Source of the DNA: Actinobacteria bacterium HGW-Actinobacteria-6
GTDB lineage: Bacteria > Actinomycetota > Coriobacteriia > Anaerosomatales > Anaerosomataceae
Assembly: GCA_002841295.1 (NCBI GenBank)
Contig: PHEU01000021.1
Location: forward strand, 1 to 64,000
Length of the DNA stretch: 64,000 nucleotides
Reading direction: 5' to 3'
In this document: in pieces, positions 10,309 to 48,019 of the stretch
How positions within the stretch are numbered: position 1 is the first letter of the stretch
Layout of the letters: each line of letters begins with the position of its first letter
Made by a program: the position numbers and the translations under genes
The notes under the pieces: model-generated
Database searches by the model: none
Told to the model about the DNA's origin: nothing
Seen by the model: the letters and a program-made list of their open reading frames with translations, nothing else

Positions 10309-12195
10309 CTAGATCGTCTTCAGTCGGCACTGGAGGGCGAGGTTCGCGGCAACGGTGTCACTCAGCGCCACATCACGACACACGAAGAGATCCCCCCGCA
10401 TGAGCCCCAGCGCGTTACCCAGATCCGAGCTGACTTCGGCGTCAAGGCAAATCTGCAAGGACTGCTCGATCCCGGAGTCAGAGACAACTAGCACCGAGTT
10501 GCCAGCCACCTCCATTGTCGTAATCTCACACGTCAGGCTGAAGCCCTCCTTACAAGCTACTTCGTAGGCAACATCGAGCGGCTGCCAACCGTCGACCAGC
10601 GGATCAGAGAAGAGCGACATTGTGTCTATGAAGCGTTCAGCGTCGTCGCTGGCGACACCGGTCCACGGGCGGAAGTTGCTGGTGTCAAGGTGGAATACTC
10701 GGAACCCGAGTTGCGTCTCGCCCGCCACCTGGGCGAGCCCAAGCGCTGCGCGGCGGACGCGCTCCATGGCGAGCTTGGCGATCGATTCGAATTGCTCATC
10801 AGCGATTGGTTCAGGCAGCTGGATGAGCAAGAATCGGCGGCCCTCACCTCGTGCCTCTGTCCGGAGAACCGCCTCGCCGGTGGTTCCCGAGCCCGCGAAG
10901 AAGTCCAGCACGATGTCACCCGGGTCGGTCGCCATCTCGATCAGCCGCTCAACGAGGGCTACCGGCTTCGGCGACATAAAGAGTCTCCCGGGCACAAGCG
11001 CATCTAGATCTTCCTGGCCGCGTTCCGTGTAGAATTCGTTCTCCTGCCAGACGGTCTTGAACTTCTTCGTGACGACCTGGCCCCCAATGTGGGCGTAAGC
11101 CTTGCGGAACACCTTGAACACGCCGTCCACTTCACGACCAACTAGCAACTCAGAGGACTTTGCCGCCTTGGCTCGATTCCAAGTCCAGCAGCCTGAGAAT
11201 CCGTCGGGCCATGTCGGCCAGACCTCCACGGATTTCGAGTCAATACGATCAACGCTGACTGCTCCATTGCCGGGATCAACCCATAGCGGAAACCACATGA
11301 GCTTCCTCGTCTTACTGTTGAACTGACGATGTGTATTTCGCAGTTCAGAAAGCCGATAGTGGCCGCCTTCGTCCTTGAGCGGATATTCAGCATCAATCTG
11401 TTCCGGGGTCTTCTCAACCATCAGGTCTACGTTCTTCGAATCCCGCGCGTAGACAAGCAGATAGTCATGATTCCTTGCGAACTGACCTGCCCCGAGAACT
11501 CGACCTCTCGGGTTGGTCACTACGGTGATCTGGCCGATGAAGTTCTCCTCGCCAAATAGCTCATTCATCAGCGCGCGTAGGTTGAATACCTCGTTGTCAT
11601 CAATACTGATGAAGATAACGCCATCCTCCGTCAGAAGCTGACGGGCGAGGAACAGGCGCGGATACATCATTGATAGCCACGCCGAGTGGTATCGGCCGCT
11701 CTTCTCGGGGTTGCTGCGCAGTAAGTTGCCAGACTCGTCAAGCTGGCCGGACTGTCGCAGATACGCGTTCAGGGAGTCGGAGAAGTCATCCTCGTACACG
11801 AAGTCGTTACCAGTGTTGTACGGCGGATCTATGTAGATCATCTTGACCCGACCCGCATACGCTTTGTGGGCGAGTCGCAATACTTCGAGGTTGTCACCTT
11901 CAACGAAGACGTTGGCGGACGTGGCGAAGTCGACTGATTCGCTGACATTCGGCGTGAGCGTCTGTTGTGTCGGTGCTTGAAGAAGTCGCATCGCATCGCG
12001 CTTCCCCGCCCACGAGAGCGCGTAGCGCTCCGGGCCCTCGCCGCCATCCTGGCCCAGGGCGACCTGGAGGGCGGTCATGTTCAGGCAGCCGTCGACGAAC
12101 GCATTGGGCACAATGTCCCGTAGGACGTCTAGCGTCTCGTCGAGCGCAGCGGACACTTCTCGGTTGGCGCGATCGGGCCCCTCGCCGTTTGCCAT
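10309..12195 (-). CDS. mod: Type III DNA methyltransferase, Mod subunit
   Basis: A 628-residue adenine-N6 methyltransferase of the beta class. Catalytic motif IV DPPYNTGNDF comes first (near residue 125), and the AdoMet motif I DFFAGSGTTGEAV comes later (near 432). The region between the motifs is long, as expected for the recognition domain of Mod proteins. Mod recognises and methylates the target site and directs the Res subunit encoded immediately downstream. The start ATG at 12195 is preceded by GAGAGGAAGTC. No frameshift or phase-variable repeat was seen. Confidence 0.95.
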   Translation of the reverse strand: MANGEGPDRANREVSAALDETLDVLRDIVPNAFVDGCLNMTALQVALGQDGGEGPERYALSWAGKRDAMRLLQAPTQQTLTPNVSESVDFATSANVFVEGDNLEVLRLAHKAYAGRVKMIYIDPPYNTGNDFVYEDDFSDSLNAYLRQSGQLDESGNLLRSNPEKSGRYHSAWLSMMYPRLFLARQLLTEDGVIFISIDDNEVFNLRALMNELFGEENFIGQITVVTNPRGRVLGAGQFARNHDYLLVYARDSKNVDLMVEKTPEQIDAEYPLKDEGGHYRLSELRNTHRQFNSKTRKLMWFPLWVDPGNGAVSVDRIDSKSVEVWPTWPDGFSGCWTWNRAKAAKSSELLVGREVDGVFKVFRKAYAHIGGQVVTKKFKTVWQENEFYTERGQEDLDALVPGRLFMSPKPVALVERLIEMATDPGDIVLDFFAGSGTTGEAVLRTEARGEGRRFLLIQLPEPIADEQFESIAKLAMERVRRAALGLAQVAGETQLGFRVFHLDTSNFRPWTGVASDDAERFIDTMSLFSDPLVDGWQPLDVAYEVACKEGFSLTCEITTMEVAGNSVLVVSDSGIEQSLQICLDAEVSSDLGNALGLMRGDLFVCRDVALSDTVAANLALQCRLKTI

Positions 12196-41883: not shown

Positions 41884-43791
41884 ATGACCGGCCCATCGCT
41901 CGTCCTCGGCACAGCCGGACATATCGACCACGGCAAGTCCTCACTGGTGCGCGCGCTCACCGGCACGGATCCCGATCGCCTGCCCGAGGAGAAAGAACGC
42001 GGCGTCACCATCGAGCTTGGCTTCGCGCAGCTCGAGCTGCCGAGCGGGCGCACGATGGGCGTCGTCGACGTCCCAGGTCACGAGAAGTTCGTGCGCCAGA
42101 TGGTCGCGGGCGCTACCGGCATCGATGTGGTGCTGTTCGTGGTCGCTGCCGATGACGGCGTCATGCCGCAGACCCGCGAGCACTTGGCGATCATCGATCT
42201 GCTCGGCATCCCGAAGGGCGTTGTTGCGCTCACCAAGTCAGACCTGGCCGATGAGGACTGGATCGAGCTGGTCTCGGAAGACATACGCACGCTGCTGGAG
42301 GGCACCTCGATCGACGGCGCGCCGATCGTTCCGGTCTCATCCAAGAGCGGAGCCGGGCTGCCCGAGCTGCTACTGGCAATAGACGAGGTGGCTGCCGAGG
42401 CAAGTGCGCGGCAGTCGAATCTCCCGATGCGGCTTCCGGTCGACCGGGTGTTCACGATCTCCGGCGCGGGCACCGTCGTCACCGGCACGCTGTGGAGCGG
42501 CTCGGCCGAGCGCGACGCGCCGGTGGAGTTGTACCCCTCGGGCGTGAAGGGGAGGATCCGCTCGGTGCAGATGCACGGCGAGCAGGCCGAGAAGGCCGTC
42601 GCCGGCAACCGGGTTGCCATCAACCTCGCCGGTGTGGAGCGAGACGAGGTCAACCGCGGCGATATCGTGGCCGAGCCCGGCACGCTCACCGTCACCGAGC
42701 GATTCGACGCGCACATCACGTATCTCGGCAGCGAGACCAAGCCGTTCGAGAGCGGTGCCCGCGTTCACGTGCATCACGGCACACGCGAGGTGCTTGGCCG
42801 CGTGTTGCTCATGGATGTGCCATCGCTGCCGCCGGGTGGCCGTGGGGTCGCTCAGATACGCCTGGAGGAGCCGCTTTCGCCGCGCTACGGTGACCACTTC
42901 ATCATCCGTTCGTACTCGCCGATGTGGACGATCGGCGGCGGCGTCGTGCTCGACGCGCTGCCTCCCCGTCGCACGCAGCTCAAGCACTACGAGCGCAGTC
43001 TGCTCGAGGCGCTCATCGCGCACGATCTCTCCTCGGCGGCCATCGGGCTGCTTGCCGCACGTGCGCTGCCGATGACCTCGGCACAAGTCGCGCTCGCGCT
43101 TGGCGTCCCGCGCTCCGGAGTCGCCGACGACCTCAACAAGGCGGATCTGCAGCGTCTCAAGGTGGGCAACGACACGTACTTTGTCACCACGGGCGCGCAG
43201 CAGCACTTCCTCGATTCGATCGAACGTGAGCTGCTCAAGTTCCACGAGCAGAACCCGAAAGCGACCGGCATCGCCGCGCTTGCGCTGCGCGACAGAGTCG
43301 ATCGTCGGCTGGAGCCGAAGGTCTTTGACGCGCTGCTCGCCGTCGCGGTCGAGCGTTCTGCTGCCGTACTCGCCGGCGGTGAGGTCCGACACCCCAAGGC
43401 CGCTTCAACTGCGCTTGCCGAGGGAGAAGCTGCCCGCGACGCGCTCGTGCCGCTGCTACGCTCTCAGGGGCTTGCACCGGCAACGGTGGTCGAGCTTGCA
43501 GCGGAGGTTGGCATCGATGCGGGCGTCGTTCGCAAAGCGCTCACAAAGCTGGTGGCCGAGGGCGCGATCGTGCGCGTCGGACCCGAGCTGCACTTCGACG
43601 CGGGGGCTGTTGAAACCGCACGCGATCAGATCGTTGCGCACCTGAAGCAGCATGGTGAGATCCTGGCGAAAGAAGCGCGCGATATCACGGGAAGCAGCCG
43701 CAAGTTCATACTGCCGCTGCTCGAGTACTTCGATGCGCAGGGAATCACCAAGCGCGACGGCGACGTACGCACGCTCGGCAAACGCGGCTAG
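41884..43791 (+). CDS. selB: Selenocysteine-specific elongation factor
   Basis: 635 residues. SelB carries Sec-tRNA(Sec) and binds the SECIS hairpin to insert Sec at UGA. The G-domain shows [45 protein letters not shown] and [10 protein letters not shown]-Tu-like domains 2 and 3 follow ([17 protein letters not shown]), then four C-terminal winged helices ([34 protein letters not shown]) that bind mRNA. Length is normal. The last codon shares the palindrome CTAG with the stop of the convergent histidine kinase. Confidence 0.97.
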
Positions 43792-45200
43792 GCGTCTTTC
43801 GGGGCACTCTGCTTGCGCAGCCGGAGCGTGAAGATCGCGCCTCCTCCGACCGCGTTGTGTGCCTCGATCGTGCCCTGATGCAACTCCACGAGGCGCTTGG
43901 TGATCGCGAGTCCCAGCCCGCTGCCGCCGCTGGTGGCTGCTCTTGGCCCCTGCGAGCGGTAGAAGCGGTCGAAGAGTCTCGGAAGGTCCTCCGTACGGAT
44001 ACCGGCGCCGGTGTCTCTGATCGAGATGACCACGTTGTCGCCCTCAACACGTGCCGAGACGGTCACGGTTCCGGCTACCGGCGTGTGCGTGATCGCGTTG
44101 CGCATGAGGTTGAGGAGCGCCTGGTCGAGCTGGTCGGGATCGCCGCTCACCCACAGCCCCCCGGGCACATCGTTGACGATCGTCGGTCCGCCGATCGCAC
44201 GGGCACGCACGACGGCTTCCTCGGCCAGGGTCGCGACATCGAGGAGCTGGAACGGACGTAGTTGGCGGCTGTCGAGCCGTGCGAGGGCGAGCAGGTCATC
44301 CACGAGTCGTCCAAGGCGTCCCGCTTCGTCGCGTATCGCTTCGAGAGCCCGCTGCTTGGACGTCTCATCGGTGCGTGGGTGGTCGATCAGGTCGAGGTTG
44401 CCACACACGACTGCGATGGGTGTCCTGAGCTCATGCGATGCATCCGCCACAAAGCGGCGCTGCTCGGTGAAAGCGGTCTCCAGCCGGTCGAGCATCCCAT
44501 TGAACGATTCGACCATCGCGCCGACCTCGTCATCCGGGCCGTCGTACGGCACACGGTCGCCGAGCGATGATTGTGTGATCTGTCCAGCTGTCGCCGCGAC
44601 CTTTCGCAGCGGGCTGAGGCTTGCTCGGGCGGCCCACGCCGAGAGAATCGCCCCCAGGATCACCACGAGCGCGCCACCAAGTCCGAGTGTCCCGCCGAGA
44701 TTGGCCGCAACGCCGCGCATGTAGGCGGTCGACAACGCCGCCTGGAAGACGCCCGCGACGGCCCCGTTCGCGCCGAGGATCGGAGCGGTCGCCACCCGGT
44801 ATTGCTCCGAGCCGAGCACGATCGTGCTGAATCCTGCGGTGGGTAGCTCGGTGTTTCCCTCGGCGGTCTCAAGTTTCACGTCGGAGTTGGACAGCACGCG
44901 TCCGTCCGAGAGGCGTACCAGCAGGATCGGCTGGGCGCCCGTCTCGGCTTTTGTGCGGGCGGCCAGGTATGTGCGCGCGATCTCCACGAGTCCGGAGTCG
45001 TCCTCCTCGGCTTCCCCGCTGTGGACGGCCGCCATGAACGCCTCGGATTCACGGAGTAGCCCACGGTCGATGTCGGCCTGTAGGCCGCTCGAAACCGCGA
45101 TGTACGACGTCAATGCAAGGGCGACGACACCGACGGTTAAGGTGAGCGTCATCGCCAGGGCGACGCGCCCCGAGGCCGTCAGGTGCCTACGGGCGGACAC
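43788..45200 (-). CDS. Sensor histidine kinase (HAMP, HisKA, HATPase)
   Basis: 470 residues. Two membrane helices (about 16-37 and 170-190) enclose an extracytoplasmic sensor of about 130 residues with no recognised fold. A HAMP linker follows, then the phospho-acceptor H-box VADASHELRTPIAVVCGN, N-box LLNLMRNAITHT, and G-boxes IRDTGAGIRTEDL and GSGLGLAITKRL. Its start overlaps the response regulator end by 14 bp, so it is the last gene of a minus-strand operon. The operon also holds a multihaem cytochrome, so the stimulus may be redox-linked (inference). Confidence 0.94.
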   Translation of the reverse strand: MSARRHLTASGRVALAMTLTLTVGVVALALTSYIAVSSGLQADIDRGLLRESEAFMAAVHSGEAEEDDSGLVEIARTYLAARTKAETGAQPILLVRLSDGRVLSNSDVKLETAEGNTELPTAGFSTIVLGSEQYRVATAPILGANGAVAGVFQAALSTAYMRGVAANLGGTLGLGGALVVILGAILSAWAARASLSPLRKVAATAGQITQSSLGDRVPYDGPDDEVGAMVESFNGMLDRLETAFTEQRRFVADASHELRTPIAVVCGNLDLIDHPRTDETSKQRALEAIRDEAGRLGRLVDDLLALARLDSRQLRPFQLLDVATLAEEAVVRARAIGGPTIVNDVPGGLWVSGDPDQLDQALLNLMRNAITHTPVAGTVTVSARVEGDNVVISIRDTGAGIRTEDLPRLFDRFYRSQGPRAATSGGSGLGLAITKRLVELHQGTIEAHNAVGGGAIFTLRLRKQSAPKDA

Positions 45201-45852
45201 GGTACCCCGCTCCGCGAACCGTCTCGATGACCGACGGCTTTCCGTGGCGGTCGAGCTTGCGTCTGAGATAGCCTACGTACACGTCGACGATGTTCGATGC
45301 GCTCTCAAAACCGAAGCCCCAGACCGTGTCGAGAATCTGCTGGCGCGTGAGCACCTGCCCTGGATGTCGCATGAGGTACTCAAGCAAGGAGAACTCGCGT
45401 GAGGGCAGATCCGCCGAGTGACCCGCATGTGTGGCGATCCGTGTGCGGACATCGAGGCTGAGCTCGGCTGTTTCGAGCATCCGCGAGCTCTGCTGGCCGT
45501 GTCGGCAGGCTGCGCGCACTCGTGCGGCAAGCTCCGCGAATGCGATCGGTTTCACCAGGTAGTCATCGGCGCCCAGATCGAGGAGTTCGACTTTGTCGTC
45601 GGTCTCACCCAGGGCAGTCACTATGATGATGGGGACTTCGGTGTCGCGTGCCCTGATAGTGCGAAGCACATCGCGTCCACCGCCGTCAGGAAGCACCAGG
45701 TCGAGCAGGATGAGGTCGTAGACATGTGCGGCAGACATGCCGACCGCATCGTGAGCGGTTGAGGCGCGTTCCACGGCGTGTCCTTCAGCGGAGAGGCCGC
45801 TTGCCATGAACGATGCGATGCGGTCCTCGTCTTCGACGAGCAGAATCCTCAT
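45187..45852 (-). CDS. OmpR-family response regulator
   Basis: 221 residues. The receiver domain has the acidic pair (VEDEDR), the phospho-acceptor DLILLDLVLPDGGG, the switch region IIVTALGETDDKVE and the conserved Lys in GADDYLVKPIAFAEL. The C-terminal winged helix is OmpR-type (LPSREFSLLEYLMRHPGQV, NIVDVYVGYLRRKLD, VRGAGYRVRP). It would be phosphorylated by the kinase encoded next. Targets are unknown. Confidence 0.95.
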   Translation of the reverse strand: MRILLVEDEDRIASFMASGLSAEGHAVERASTAHDAVGMSAAHVYDLILLDLVLPDGGGRDVLRTIRARDTEVPIIIVTALGETDDKVELLDLGADDYLVKPIAFAELAARVRAACRHGQQSSRMLETAELSLDVRTRIATHAGHSADLPSREFSLLEYLMRHPGQVLTRQQILDTVWGFGFESASNIVDVYVGYLRRKLDRHGKPSVIETVRGAGYRVRP

Positions 45853-45885: not shown

Positions 45886-46371
45886 CTAGTCGTCGAGTTC
45901 CGGCTCATCTCCGGAAGATGATTCCCTGTCTGAGGATTCCTCATCGTCTTGCCAGTGGATCTCGTCGGCCTCGTCGTCATCGGGATCATCTTCGCGAACG
46001 TCCGGGGTCACCACTTCGCGGGGAGCATCCTTCTCGGCCACCGGCCTGCTGGTCTTGGCAGGCGCCGCTGTGGCTGCCGGCACCGTGGGCTTGGAGGATG
46101 GTGCCTCCGCTGCTGTCTCGGTCGCAGTTTCCGGGGCCGTGGTTGACGCCACGGGAATCGGGTCAATGGAGCCGGAGAGGGCGATAACCGGCAGGTCAGC
46201 GCGCGAAGGATTCGACAGGCTACCGAGCGAGATCGCATAGGCGCCAGCCGCGCCGAGGAACAAGGCGGCCGTGAGGCTCACCAGGAAACTTTGCCGCCAT
46301 CTGCCGATCATCTTGTCAACTCCCTTTGCATGCTTCGGCTTCACTAGTGAGTATACGTCGCTCTCGCTCAT
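45886..46371 (-). CDS. Membrane-anchored protein with Pro/Thr/Ala-rich stalk and acidic tail
   Basis: About 161 residues from ATG 46371 (upstream ATGs at 46380 and 46398 would overlap the cytochrome end). A cytoplasmic stretch of about 25 residues is followed by one membrane helix (FLVSLTAALFLGAAGAYAI), then an extracytoplasmic region rich in Ala, Thr, Pro and Glu, and a very acidic tail (REDDPDDDEADEIHW and further Asp/Glu/Ser). No family is recognised. It starts right after the cytochrome stop and precedes the response regulator by 33 nt. The acidic tail could bind cations or dock to the cytochrome; this is speculation. Confidence 0.7.
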   Translation of the reverse strand: MSESDVYSLVKPKHAKGVDKMIGRWRQSFLVSLTAALFLGAAGAYAISLGSLSNPSRADLPVIALSGSIDPIPVASTTAPETATETAAEAPSSKPTVPAATAAPAKTSRPVAEKDAPREVVTPDVREDDPDDDEADEIHWQDDEESSDRESSSGDEPELDD

Positions 46372-46372
46372 C

Positions 46373-47797
46373 CTAGTCATCGTCGGGTCCGTCCGCACCG
46401 TGGCACTTGGTGCACGAGGCTGAGGAATACCCCTTGGTGTGGCAGTTGGTGCAGGCGAAACTCTTGTACGTGTGCTCGCCGCCCGGGATTCGAGGATGGC
46501 TGAATGTCGCGCTCCTCCATGCCTTGGTGGGCGTGTGGCACGACGAACATGAGGTGCCGTAATGCTTCGACGGTGTCGAGTGGCAAGACGAGCAGGATTT
46601 CGATGACGGGTGGTAGAACCTCCACGATCCGCCGGGCTTGTGGCACGTCACGCACGACTTGCTCGAGTGTCCACTCGGGCGCTTATGGCAGTTCGTGCAG
46701 GTCGCGCCACTGCCGGGGTGTGTGAACTTTGCGCTTGCGAACGCCACCTTCGGCGAGTGGCATGCAGAGCATGCGCCCGAGTAGTGCCTTGAAGGCGCCT
46801 TGTGGCAGTTCGAGCATGCCTTCGACGTCGGGTGCTGGAACTTCCAGGAGGCGCCCGTTTCGTGGCAGGTGATGCAGGTGCGCGTCGAGTGCGCTGCGGG
46901 CCGGGTATGGCAGTCCGTGCATGTCGCGGTCGATTGCGGGTGCTGGAACTTCCAGGTGACGCCCGTCTTATGGCACGTCGTGCATGCACCGGTCCGGTGC
47001 TCGGCGGGTGTGGTGTGGCAGTCGGTGCATGTCGCGGCGTTGTCCGGGTGGGAGAACGCCCACGACGCTGCGGTGGCGTGGCATGCGGTGCACGAGGTGC
47101 CCACACCTGTCGTCGTGGCCGTCACGCTGGCAAGCTGAGGATGCCTTTCGGCTTCGCGGGTGTGGCAGTTTGCGCATCCGGTTGCAGCGAGGTCATGGCA
47201 GCTTGAGCACGTCACCCTCATGTGTCCGGGCACGTTCGCGACGCCTCTTCCGGCCGAGGCGAAGATCAGGAGTTCGCGGTTCTGCGCGGCGGCGGTATCG
47301 AGGATGCCCGCCTCAGCAAGGGCGACTGAGGTCACTGTGTGCCCGGCGCTCGCGTGGCAGTCAACGCAGGAGCGGCTGCCCTGGTGCGTCTCGTGGGAGA
47401 AGCCCTCGATGCCGGTGTCGATCGTGCCGCTGTGGCACGCCAGGCATCGGCTGTCGGGGACGGCGGTTACAGCACCCGGGAACTTCGGGTCGGTCGTGAA
47501 GTGGTTGTAGACCTCTTTGAGTGCGACGAACTTATGCGAGACTTGCGCTTCAAGGCCCGGGTCGACGTGGCATGAGATGCATGAGACGTCCGAGTGCGCG
47601 CCAGCATTCCAGGCGGTGTAGTAGGGGGTCATCTCGTGGCACGAGGTGCAAAACGCCGGGCGGCTTGTGTATTCAGTGGCCGCGACGCCTCCGCTGATGA
47701 GTGCGGCAAGCACAACGACAGCCGCAAGTGCGGTCACCGCCGGCCGTCGTATCAGTGCAGCGAAGAGTCGTTTCATGGGCTTCGGCTCCGGTTTCAC
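46373..47797 (-). CDS. Multihaem c-type cytochrome with 19 CxxCH motifs
   Basis: About 474 residues. A membrane anchor (AVTALAAVVVLAALISGGVA) is followed directly by a NapC/NrfH-like opening, FCTSCHEMTPYYTAWNAGAH then DVSCISCHVDPG. I count 19 CxxCH haem-attachment motifs. The C-terminal two-thirds is a repeat of about 25-30 residues of the type CTDCHTxPAxH..CxTCHxxGxxWKFQHP. Each motif should bind one haem covalently outside the membrane, forming an electron wire, plausibly from the quinone pool to extracellular acceptors (inference). Starts: GTG 47797 or ATG 47776. Confidence 0.92.
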   Translation of the reverse strand: MKPEPKPMKRLFAALIRRPAVTALAAVVVLAALISGGVAATEYTSRPAFCTSCHEMTPYYTAWNAGAHSDVSCISCHVDPGLEAQVSHKFVALKEVYNHFTTDPKFPGAVTAVPDSRCLACHSGTIDTGIEGFSHETHQGSRSCVDCHASAGHTVTSVALAEAGILDTAAAQNRELLIFASAGRGVANVPGHMRVTCSSCHDLAATGCANCHTREAERHPQLASVTATTTGVGTSCTACHATAASWAFSHPDNAATCTDCHTTPAEHRTGACTTCHKTGVTWKFQHPQSTATCTDCHTRPAAHSTRTCITCHETGASWKFQHPTSKACSNCHKAPSRHYSGACSACHSPKVAFASAKFTHPGSGATCTNCHKRPSGHSSKSCVTCHKPGGSWRFYHPSSKSCSSCHSTPSKHYGTSCSSCHTPTKAWRSATFSHPRIPGGEHTYKSFACTNCHTKGYSSASCTKCHGADGPDDD

Positions 47798-47888
47798 GTC
47801 TGCTGTGTCCTACCGGAGTATCGGGAACGTCCATGAGTCGTCGATGAGCGGGCGGTGAGAGTTCTCTCACGCAAAAGCGGCATCCGGT

Positions 47889-47917
47889 TTGACAGCAGGG
47901 GAGCGGCTCCCCACAAT
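47889..47917 (+). promoter_or_regulatory. Probable promoter of selC
   Basis: TTGACA (47889-47894), 17 nt, CACAAT (47912-47917); transcription would begin almost at the tRNA 5' end (47926). The spacer contains the inverted repeat GGGGAG-CGG-CTCCCC (47898-47912). Confidence 0.6.
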
Positions 47918-47925
47918 ACCGCCCT

Positions 47926-48019
47926 GGAGGCGAATGGGTCCTGGTGGGCTCCGCGGTCTTCAAAACCGACGTGGGGCGTGAAGAGCGTCCTGGGTGTGTT
48001 CTCGCACACGCCTCCGCCA
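47926..48019 (+). tRNA. selC: Selenocysteine tRNA (anticodon TCA)
   Basis: A 94-nt tRNA. The acceptor strand GGAGGCG pairs with CGCCTCC, then G and an encoded CCA. The D-arm GGGTCC-TGGT-GGGCTC has six pairs and a short loop, a hallmark of tRNA-Sec. The anticodon loop is CTTCAAA (UCA). A long variable arm GGGGCG..CGTCCT follows. The T-arm is odd: GTGTG-TTCTCG-CACAC gives a 6-nt loop without the usual TTCRA and shares bases with the acceptor stem. Confidence 0.87.

Follow-up and report, generated by a model that had tools for sequence, protein, structure and literature searches.

How a cell with a presumed Gram-positive wall would use a cytochrome of nineteen haems encoded beside a two-component system is the question raised by this locus, for which the original prediction had suggested a wire across the wall together with a control or docking module. 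The locus lies in a 64,000-nucleotide stretch of DNA from Actinobacteria bacterium HGW-Actinobacteria-6 (contig PHEU01000021.1), hereafter the window, and its features are collected in Table 1. The anatomy of the cytochrome (CYT), its operon, a conserved operator-like element, the co-distribution of these parts and the other genes found behind the element lead us to consider it probable, with a good deal of room for doubt, that CYT oxidises menaquinol and serves as a haem wire for extracellular electron transfer, and that its own regulator switches it on together with haem partners that are wall-bound and secreted.

Table 1. Features of the cytochrome locus, in window coordinates
Feature	Coordinates	Strand	Details
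Membrane sensor histidine kinase	43788..45200	-	HAMP, HisKA, HATPase
Response regulator, OmpR/PhoB-type	45187..45852	-	Pfam Response_reg + Trans_reg_C
ACID, small anchored acidic protein	45886..46311	-	141 aa; likelier start ATG 46311
CYT, 19-haem cytochrome	46373..47776	-	467 aa from ATG 47776
Parts of CYT			N-terminal helix, NrfH-like tetrahaem head, haems 5-7, five dihaem ladder units, dihaem cap
-10-like GATACT	47817..47822	-	fixed distance from third repeat
Predicted operator	47826..47871	-	inverted half TGAGA, then CTCAC/CTCAT/CTCAT direct repeats, 11-bp spacing
Sigma-70-like promoter match toward tRNA-Sec	47889..47917	+	TTGACA-17-CACAAT
tRNA-Sec (selC)	47926..48015	+	Rfam RF01852, 53.5 bits vs gathering 47; divergent from CYT

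The predicted haem count was confirmed, since the open reading frame at 46373-47797 (-) contains 19 CxxCH motifs compared to an average of 0.24, and never more than 3, in 10000 shuffles of CYT's own residues. Among the 57 called ORFs of the window, one contains CxxCH. The GTG at 47797 given earlier is a possible start; the ATG listed in Table 1 is likelier, because the relatives in loci L007 and L008 begin with MKRL or MRRL at that point and GGAG lies upstream.

The NapC/NrfH-like anchor that had been proposed also holds up. The head matches PF03264 (Cytochrom_NNT, NapC/NirT) with E=4.6e-11 and 43.2 bits against a cut-off of 24.1, over residues 22-156 of the longer ORF, and its best solved relative among PDB chains is Desulfovibrio vulgaris NrfH (2j7a, E=1.5e-11); with its N-terminal membrane helix and four haems, it belongs to the NapC/NirT/NrfH family. 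The NrfH equivalog model (TIGR03153, NCBIfam) has a cut-off of 134.2 bits and gave the head 61.7, so that the head is, as judged by profile, NrfH-like and not NrfH. As in D. vulgaris NrfH (2j7a/2vr0), a tetrahaem, membrane-anchored member of the NapC/NirT family, the haem-1 motif CTSCHxM is conserved. The positions aligned to NrfH Met49, Lys82 and Asp89, residues that we take to have roles at the menaquinol site, are M, K and E (Glu in CYT) in all 39 aligned heads. Unlike NrfH, the head is fused to 15 further haems and is encoded in an operon without NrfA; this absence, together with the score below the NrfH cut-off, led us to reject a part in NrfHA nitrite reduction. At E<=0.01, phmmer against PDB chains found solely NrfH and cytochrome c-552/nitrite reductase chains and no relation to filament cytochromes of the OmcS/OmcE/OmcZ type. 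The DmsE profile (TIGR03508) gave 30.3 bits against a cut-off of 192.2, over residues 43-154 only, a score that places CYT outside the MtrA/DmsE type, and a match to the selenite/tellurite protein ExtM was discarded (E=0.0027 across 41 residues).

Repeats do follow the head, as originally predicted, but the repeated element is a dihaem unit of 35-39 residues rather than one of 25-30. Each unit has the form CxxCHxxPaxHxxxxCxxCH, then W/F and HP, with CxxCH spacings of about 15 and 20-24, and the spacing plan of the closer homologues reads 23-45-26-(~53)-11 for the head, ~15/20-24 for the pairs and ~32-13 for the cap. Of 113 units, 96% have a His ten residues past the first Cys, and non-proximal His residues number at least haems minus one in 36/36 full-length homologues. 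The best explanation of these patterns is a modular ladder with bis-histidine haems. Ladder residues 246-432 carry a net charge of +17, and no wall anchor was seen at the C terminus of CYT, where Pfam shows none. AlphaFold predictions with the window CYT and three relatives gave no usable fold (pLDDT 34.8, pTM 0.17). Known haem chains extend roughly 0.8-1 nm per haem, and on a very rough estimate 19 haems would span ~15-19 nm.

Full-length homologues in the same order have between 8 and 29 haems. Orthologues at the same locus in one genus have 15 (G001), 19 (the window) and 23 (G003 and G004), and that of another genus (G014) has 21; these orthologues differ by whole dihaem units, with constant ends. 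Across homologues, 19/36 haem numbers are odd and 17/36 even, and the whole-unit rule is therefore seen among close orthologues only. The sole DNA-level tandem array inside the CYT gene comprises 1.9 copies of 108 bp at 78%, a limited extent that suggests an old repeat, for the most part at the protein level.

In a sample of the class, 31 of 197 genomes matched CYT (E<=1e-25, with at most eight candidates scored per genome), and all 31 belong to the order of the window. In the phylum sample, 18 of 396 genomes matched (E<=1e-20, at most four candidates scored per genome); among the matches listed there, coverage is of the head only, except in the window's genome and one family relative, and one of the head-covering matches extends to query residue 234. 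Two Actinobacteria MAGs are the named relatives of CYT, together with one 'uncultured bacterium' that matches weakly. Within a set of 61 genomes, 25 have a CYT of at least 150 bits among the matches listed, 21 of them with the kinase orthologue as well, and the kinase orthologue (E<=1e-60) is present in 26, being cut at a contig edge in G025, G028 and G041. The presumed Gram-positive cell receives indirect support from the Actinobacteria relatives and from CWB2 wall-binding domains in the same genome. Further indirect support comes from G012 and G016, which are probably the isolates Anaerosoma tenue and Parvivirga hydrogeniphila; if this inferred identity is correct, isolates of the same family have a Gram-positive wall (PMC9686372). 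At the thresholds used, neither genome contains the kinase, the operator or, among the matches listed, a long CYT. The same paper reports that Parvivirga reduces Fe(III) and that quinones were detected in neither isolate (PMC9686372). Since Parvivirga apparently does so without the module, Fe(III) reduction in the family does not require it.

The two-component system claimed for the operon is indeed encoded downstream of CYT on the same strand, and its receiver and winged-helix regulator and HAMP-HisKA-HATPase kinase make it a pair of the OmpR/PhoB type, the kinase having an extracytoplasmic sensor of roughly 120-130 residues. CYT is followed after a 61-nt gap by ACID and after another 33 nt by the regulator gene, which overlaps that of the kinase by 14 nt. 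CYT adjoins the regulator and kinase across seven families of the order; at some loci another gene, for a haem or Asp-rich protein, is inserted within the group. The acidic anchored protein of the original prediction is real, with the revised start of Table 1. It consists of a membrane helix, an ADLPVI motif, a Pro/Ala/Thr-rich linker, a C-terminal REVVTPDVREDD motif and an acidic tail, its last 45 residues carry a net charge of -19, and it has no Pfam match. Across the ACID family the membrane helix and the linker are common, most members have a DLPxI-like motif, and the C terminus bears the motif [RH]E[VT][VI]x[PR]x[VIL][RH], usually with an acidic tail.

The opposite charges of ladder and tail, and the position of ACID right after CYT, suit a docking partner that holds the ladder rather than a signalling accessory, an interpretation that we regard as rather unlikely given where else ACID occurs. 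The 20 of 61 genomes with a confident ACID member (profile E<1e-7) all have it directly upstream of the regulator (20/20), and in G042 the photolyase, ACID, regulator and kinase genes stand in order while CYT is on a different contig. In addition, ACID is absent from L054, L055 and L059, where CYT lacks an adjacent pair. Because ACID keeps to the regulator in every case, including G042, gene order indicates that it goes with the kinase/regulator pair, not with CYT. A role for ACID as a signalling accessory thus gains over docking, and the charges may allow both; of the control or docking module first proposed, control is supported by the common predicted operator and docking loses ground. A pair without CYT and ACID was observed at L175 (G018:C67); there the operator stands ahead of genes for an EAL protein and for another kind of acidic protein, whose N-terminus is hydrophobic.

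The predicted operator was found by aligning the DNA between tRNA-Sec and CYT from five close relatives, at which its scores are consequently circular. Three CTCAT repeats at 11-bp spacing were significant against first-order shuffles (p<=0.025) in 20/26 upstream regions, 14 of them at 0/200 shuffles; the 6/26 regions that were not significant include L048, where the gene start is wrong and a site scores 29.2 bits by matrix. No three-repeat signal was seen at L054 or L059, where CYT is present and the pair is missing. The matrix was built from 17 CYT sites, whose own scores are circular, and gave 0 hits of at least 14 bits in four shuffled 64-kb windows. Held-out sites were recovered before CYT in L048, L052 (a near-copy of L042) and L055, before ACID in L081 and weakly (14.8) in L048, with a second one in L060 and two in L079. 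In G055 (L058) the pair is present and no good site precedes CYT, the best scoring 8.9 bits. A -10-like GANNNT lies ten bases past the third repeat. Neither the search pattern nor the matrix included its A and T, which occur at 21/21 CYT-locus sites and at 22/23 (A) and 21/23 (T) of the other sites. Scanning for sigma-70 promoters returned none for CYT on its own strand, as would be expected if the regulator replaces the -35 contact. Direct repeats at 11 bp, placed at the -35 of an activator-dependent promoter, are the layout of PhoB/OmpR-type operators; unlike these, the present element has a CTCAT unit, an extra inverted half-site and mostly CxxCH genes behind it.

A search of the 61 genomes with the pattern TNAGA-N5-CTCAY-N6-CTCAY-N6-CTCAY, allowing at most two mismatches, returned 44 matches compared to 1 for the reversed control. 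A looser pattern without the inverted half gave 26 hits in 9 genomes (control 7), including hits inside other genes, most of which had low, negative or no reported matrix scores and were dropped; 2/4 of its matches in the window's own genome were without matrix support. The 44 sites comprise 19 before CYT, 2 before ACID, 22 elsewhere and one further site before an Asp-rich protein inside the G048 operon. Of the 22 elsewhere, 15 lie ahead of genes for CxxCH proteins whose N-terminus is hydrophobic (this feature, rather than a signal-peptide program, is the basis for calling them exported), 5 lie ahead of genes lacking CxxCH and 2 were not judged. Targets were fetched for 21/22 of these sites; the denominator retains the gene left out, that of G035, and also the G001:C82 site, which has no readable gene, being 260 bases away from the end of its contig.

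The target in the window's own genome (L161:6173-7366 (+), G000:C34) has three CWB2 stretches (E=2e-50), as in CWB2 wall proteins (PF04122), and differs from these in the two CxxCH motifs ahead of its wall-binding domains; a second dihaem CWB2 protein lies behind the operator in G002. A single-haem family follows the operator in G004, G029, G031, G033, G049, G054 and G059, the G033:C233 target being an ORF of second rank whose coding signal is poor. A second single-haem type is Asp-rich in G027, G041 and G050 and is cut by contig ends in G002 (C96) and G043, and G027 also has a nine-haem protein. No terminal reductase was identified among the genes behind the operator. The targets without CxxCH are two in G018, namely the EAL protein and the acidic protein encoded ahead of the pair, together with Cas9 in G003 and a GH26 enzyme and a DUF4405 protein in G055.

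Several of these targets have features of their own. The DUF4405 membrane protein (L158:1832-2905 (-)) has CxxxxCH motifs in its tail. The promoter regions of L162 (G003:C3) and L163 (G004:C10) are near-identical, with Cas9 behind the former and a single-haem protein behind the latter, as though displacement had removed the haem gene in G003. The proteins of L171 (1851-2369 (+)), L172 and L165 combine a hydrophobic N-terminus, one CxxCH and an Asp-rich tail, with cut copies in L168 and L174, and a protein of this type also lies inside the CYT operon of L039. L171, the one compared with Pfam, has a weak magnetochrome match (PF18509, E=8.2e-5, below cut-off).

These genes bear on whether electrons leave the cell at all. 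CYT might instead be a quinol-linked electron store or relay between membrane and wall that exports no electrons, feeds reductases of that zone (nitrite, sulfur compounds, oxygen stress) and has a neutral repeat number. NrfH serves a periplasmic enzyme, and such a role would agree with the NrfH-like head, with a C terminus at which no wall anchor is seen and with haem numbers that differ between close relatives. However, the window operon has no reductase gene, and most partners sharing the operator are CxxCH proteins whose N-termini look export-like, with CWB2 domains in the own genome, which suits an outward chain; we therefore judge the store or relay unlikely.

Whether the operator answers to the adjacent pair can be judged from its distribution. 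It occurs in 24/26 genomes with the kinase versus 2/35 without (Fisher p=1.6e-12, ignoring kinship among genomes that are related), and with the 17 training genomes removed, in 7/9 versus 2/35 (p=3.1e-5, kinship again ignored). Both misses, G025 and G028, have a kinase cut at a contig edge. That the operator serves another regulator, the pair being linked to it by position in the selenocysteine locus only, would agree with the sites found without a detected kinase, two in G002 (86% complete) and one in G035, which also gave the control hit. This co-occurrence nevertheless makes the idea improbable, as do the four genomes with CYT and no kinase (operator in 0/4), the fit to the OmpR/PhoB-type repeat layout, and G042, where CYT (L055) and the pair (L081) lie apart and each retains its own operator copy. 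The case for this regulator is comparative, and binding of the element by it is what we infer.

The gene encoding tRNA-Sec, which ARAGORN missed, sits between a photolyase gene and CYT, and SelB, SelA and a SelD-like gene (Pfam) lie on the far side of the operon. The tRNA-Sec gene is near CYT at 8/9 loci in one set and 9/10 in another, at a distance of 1-2.5 kb in some, and on the opposite side of CYT in L048. Judged by these arrangements, the operon holds an old place inside a selenocysteine locus; no sign that this placing is functional was found, and the link to the upstream photolyase gene looks positional. That the operon, set between tRNA-Sec and selB, is functionally part of selenium metabolism is suggested by these neighbours in the window and at many homologous loci, but is very improbable given that 15/22 operator sites elsewhere lie ahead of genes for CxxCH proteins and no selenium gene was seen behind one, that the G027:C34 site lies among sel genes yet is directed at a CxxCH gene, and that CYT has no in-frame stop before its end. 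Use of the tRNA-Sec gene as an island integration site was rejected, its 3' end pointing away from CYT. In G039, two tRNA-Sec genes (L053:9188-9280 and 11495-11587 (-)) surround a second CYT of 29 haems. In the window, the tRNA-Sec promoter match and the predicted operator share one short intergenic stretch, and the regulator could in principle also affect tRNA-Sec.

If CYT is a menaquinol-oxidising wire under its own regulator, the kinase would sense a signal, perhaps via ACID, and the PhoB-like regulator would bind the three CTCAT repeats in the -35 place of an activator-dependent promoter, switching on its own operon and other exported haem proteins, here including the CWB2 dihaem protein. 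The NrfH-type head would take electrons from menaquinol, and the ladder would carry them off the membrane and through the wall zone to haem proteins that are secreted or bound to the wall, from which they would end at an acceptor outside the cell. The ladder itself would gain or lose whole dihaem units. The window's own genome has a VitK2_biosynth gene and a match to ResB (haem attachment, E=8.2e-9). Several observations count against this reading: quinones went undetected in both isolates, Parvivirga apparently reduces Fe(III) lacking the module, the genes behind the operator yielded no terminal reductase, and 5/22 sites elsewhere are followed by genes that lack CxxCH. A bolder version, which we put forward tentatively and consider less probable than not, holds that one regulator and the CTCAT operator build a whole wall-crossing route in monoderms, with ladder length tuned to the envelope by dihaem units; the parts of this route would be a quinol dehydrogenase and length-adjustable ladder in one chain, a CWB2 dihaem relay and secreted mono- to nonahaem partners.

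The closest published kinds in the sources consulted are a 20-haem 'putative Q-oxidase' of the Gram-positive Carboxydothermus ferrireducens (Ga0395992_02_135863_137242; PMC7829351) and ImdcA of Thermincola ferriacetica (PMC7911101). The former resembles CYT in its ~460 residues (by its coordinates), its 20 haems and the proposed passage of electrons from quinol (PMC7829351), a likeness of haem number, length and proposed role only. It is described as having a CISM-kind membrane-anchor domain and being predicted to be secreted (PMC7829351), and therefore may not be of the NapC/NrfH type. The main text of that paper contains neither 'two-component' nor 'histidine kinase' (PMC7829351), and related proteins are reported in Anaerosoma and Parvivirga (PMC9686372). 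ImdcA is likewise a membrane-bound multihaem protein of a Gram-positive bacterium for which oxidation of the quinone pool is proposed, but it has ten haems, and a separate protein, CwcA, is proposed to cross the wall (PMC7911101), whereas CYT joins head and ladder in one chain. In the titles and abstract openings of the open-licence papers searched, no such regulon or CWB2 haem protein is described.

The passage of electrons across a monoderm wall is an open question, and the route proposed for Thermincola strings together separate proteins (PMC7911101). The CYT locus offers a natural length series at one position, with 15, 19, 23 and 23 haems in one genus and 21 in a neighbouring one. In addition, the operator would allow the members of the chain to be listed from sequence, in a form open to testing, across an order with few cultured members, and this listing reaches single-CxxCH proteins that multihaem searches would miss.
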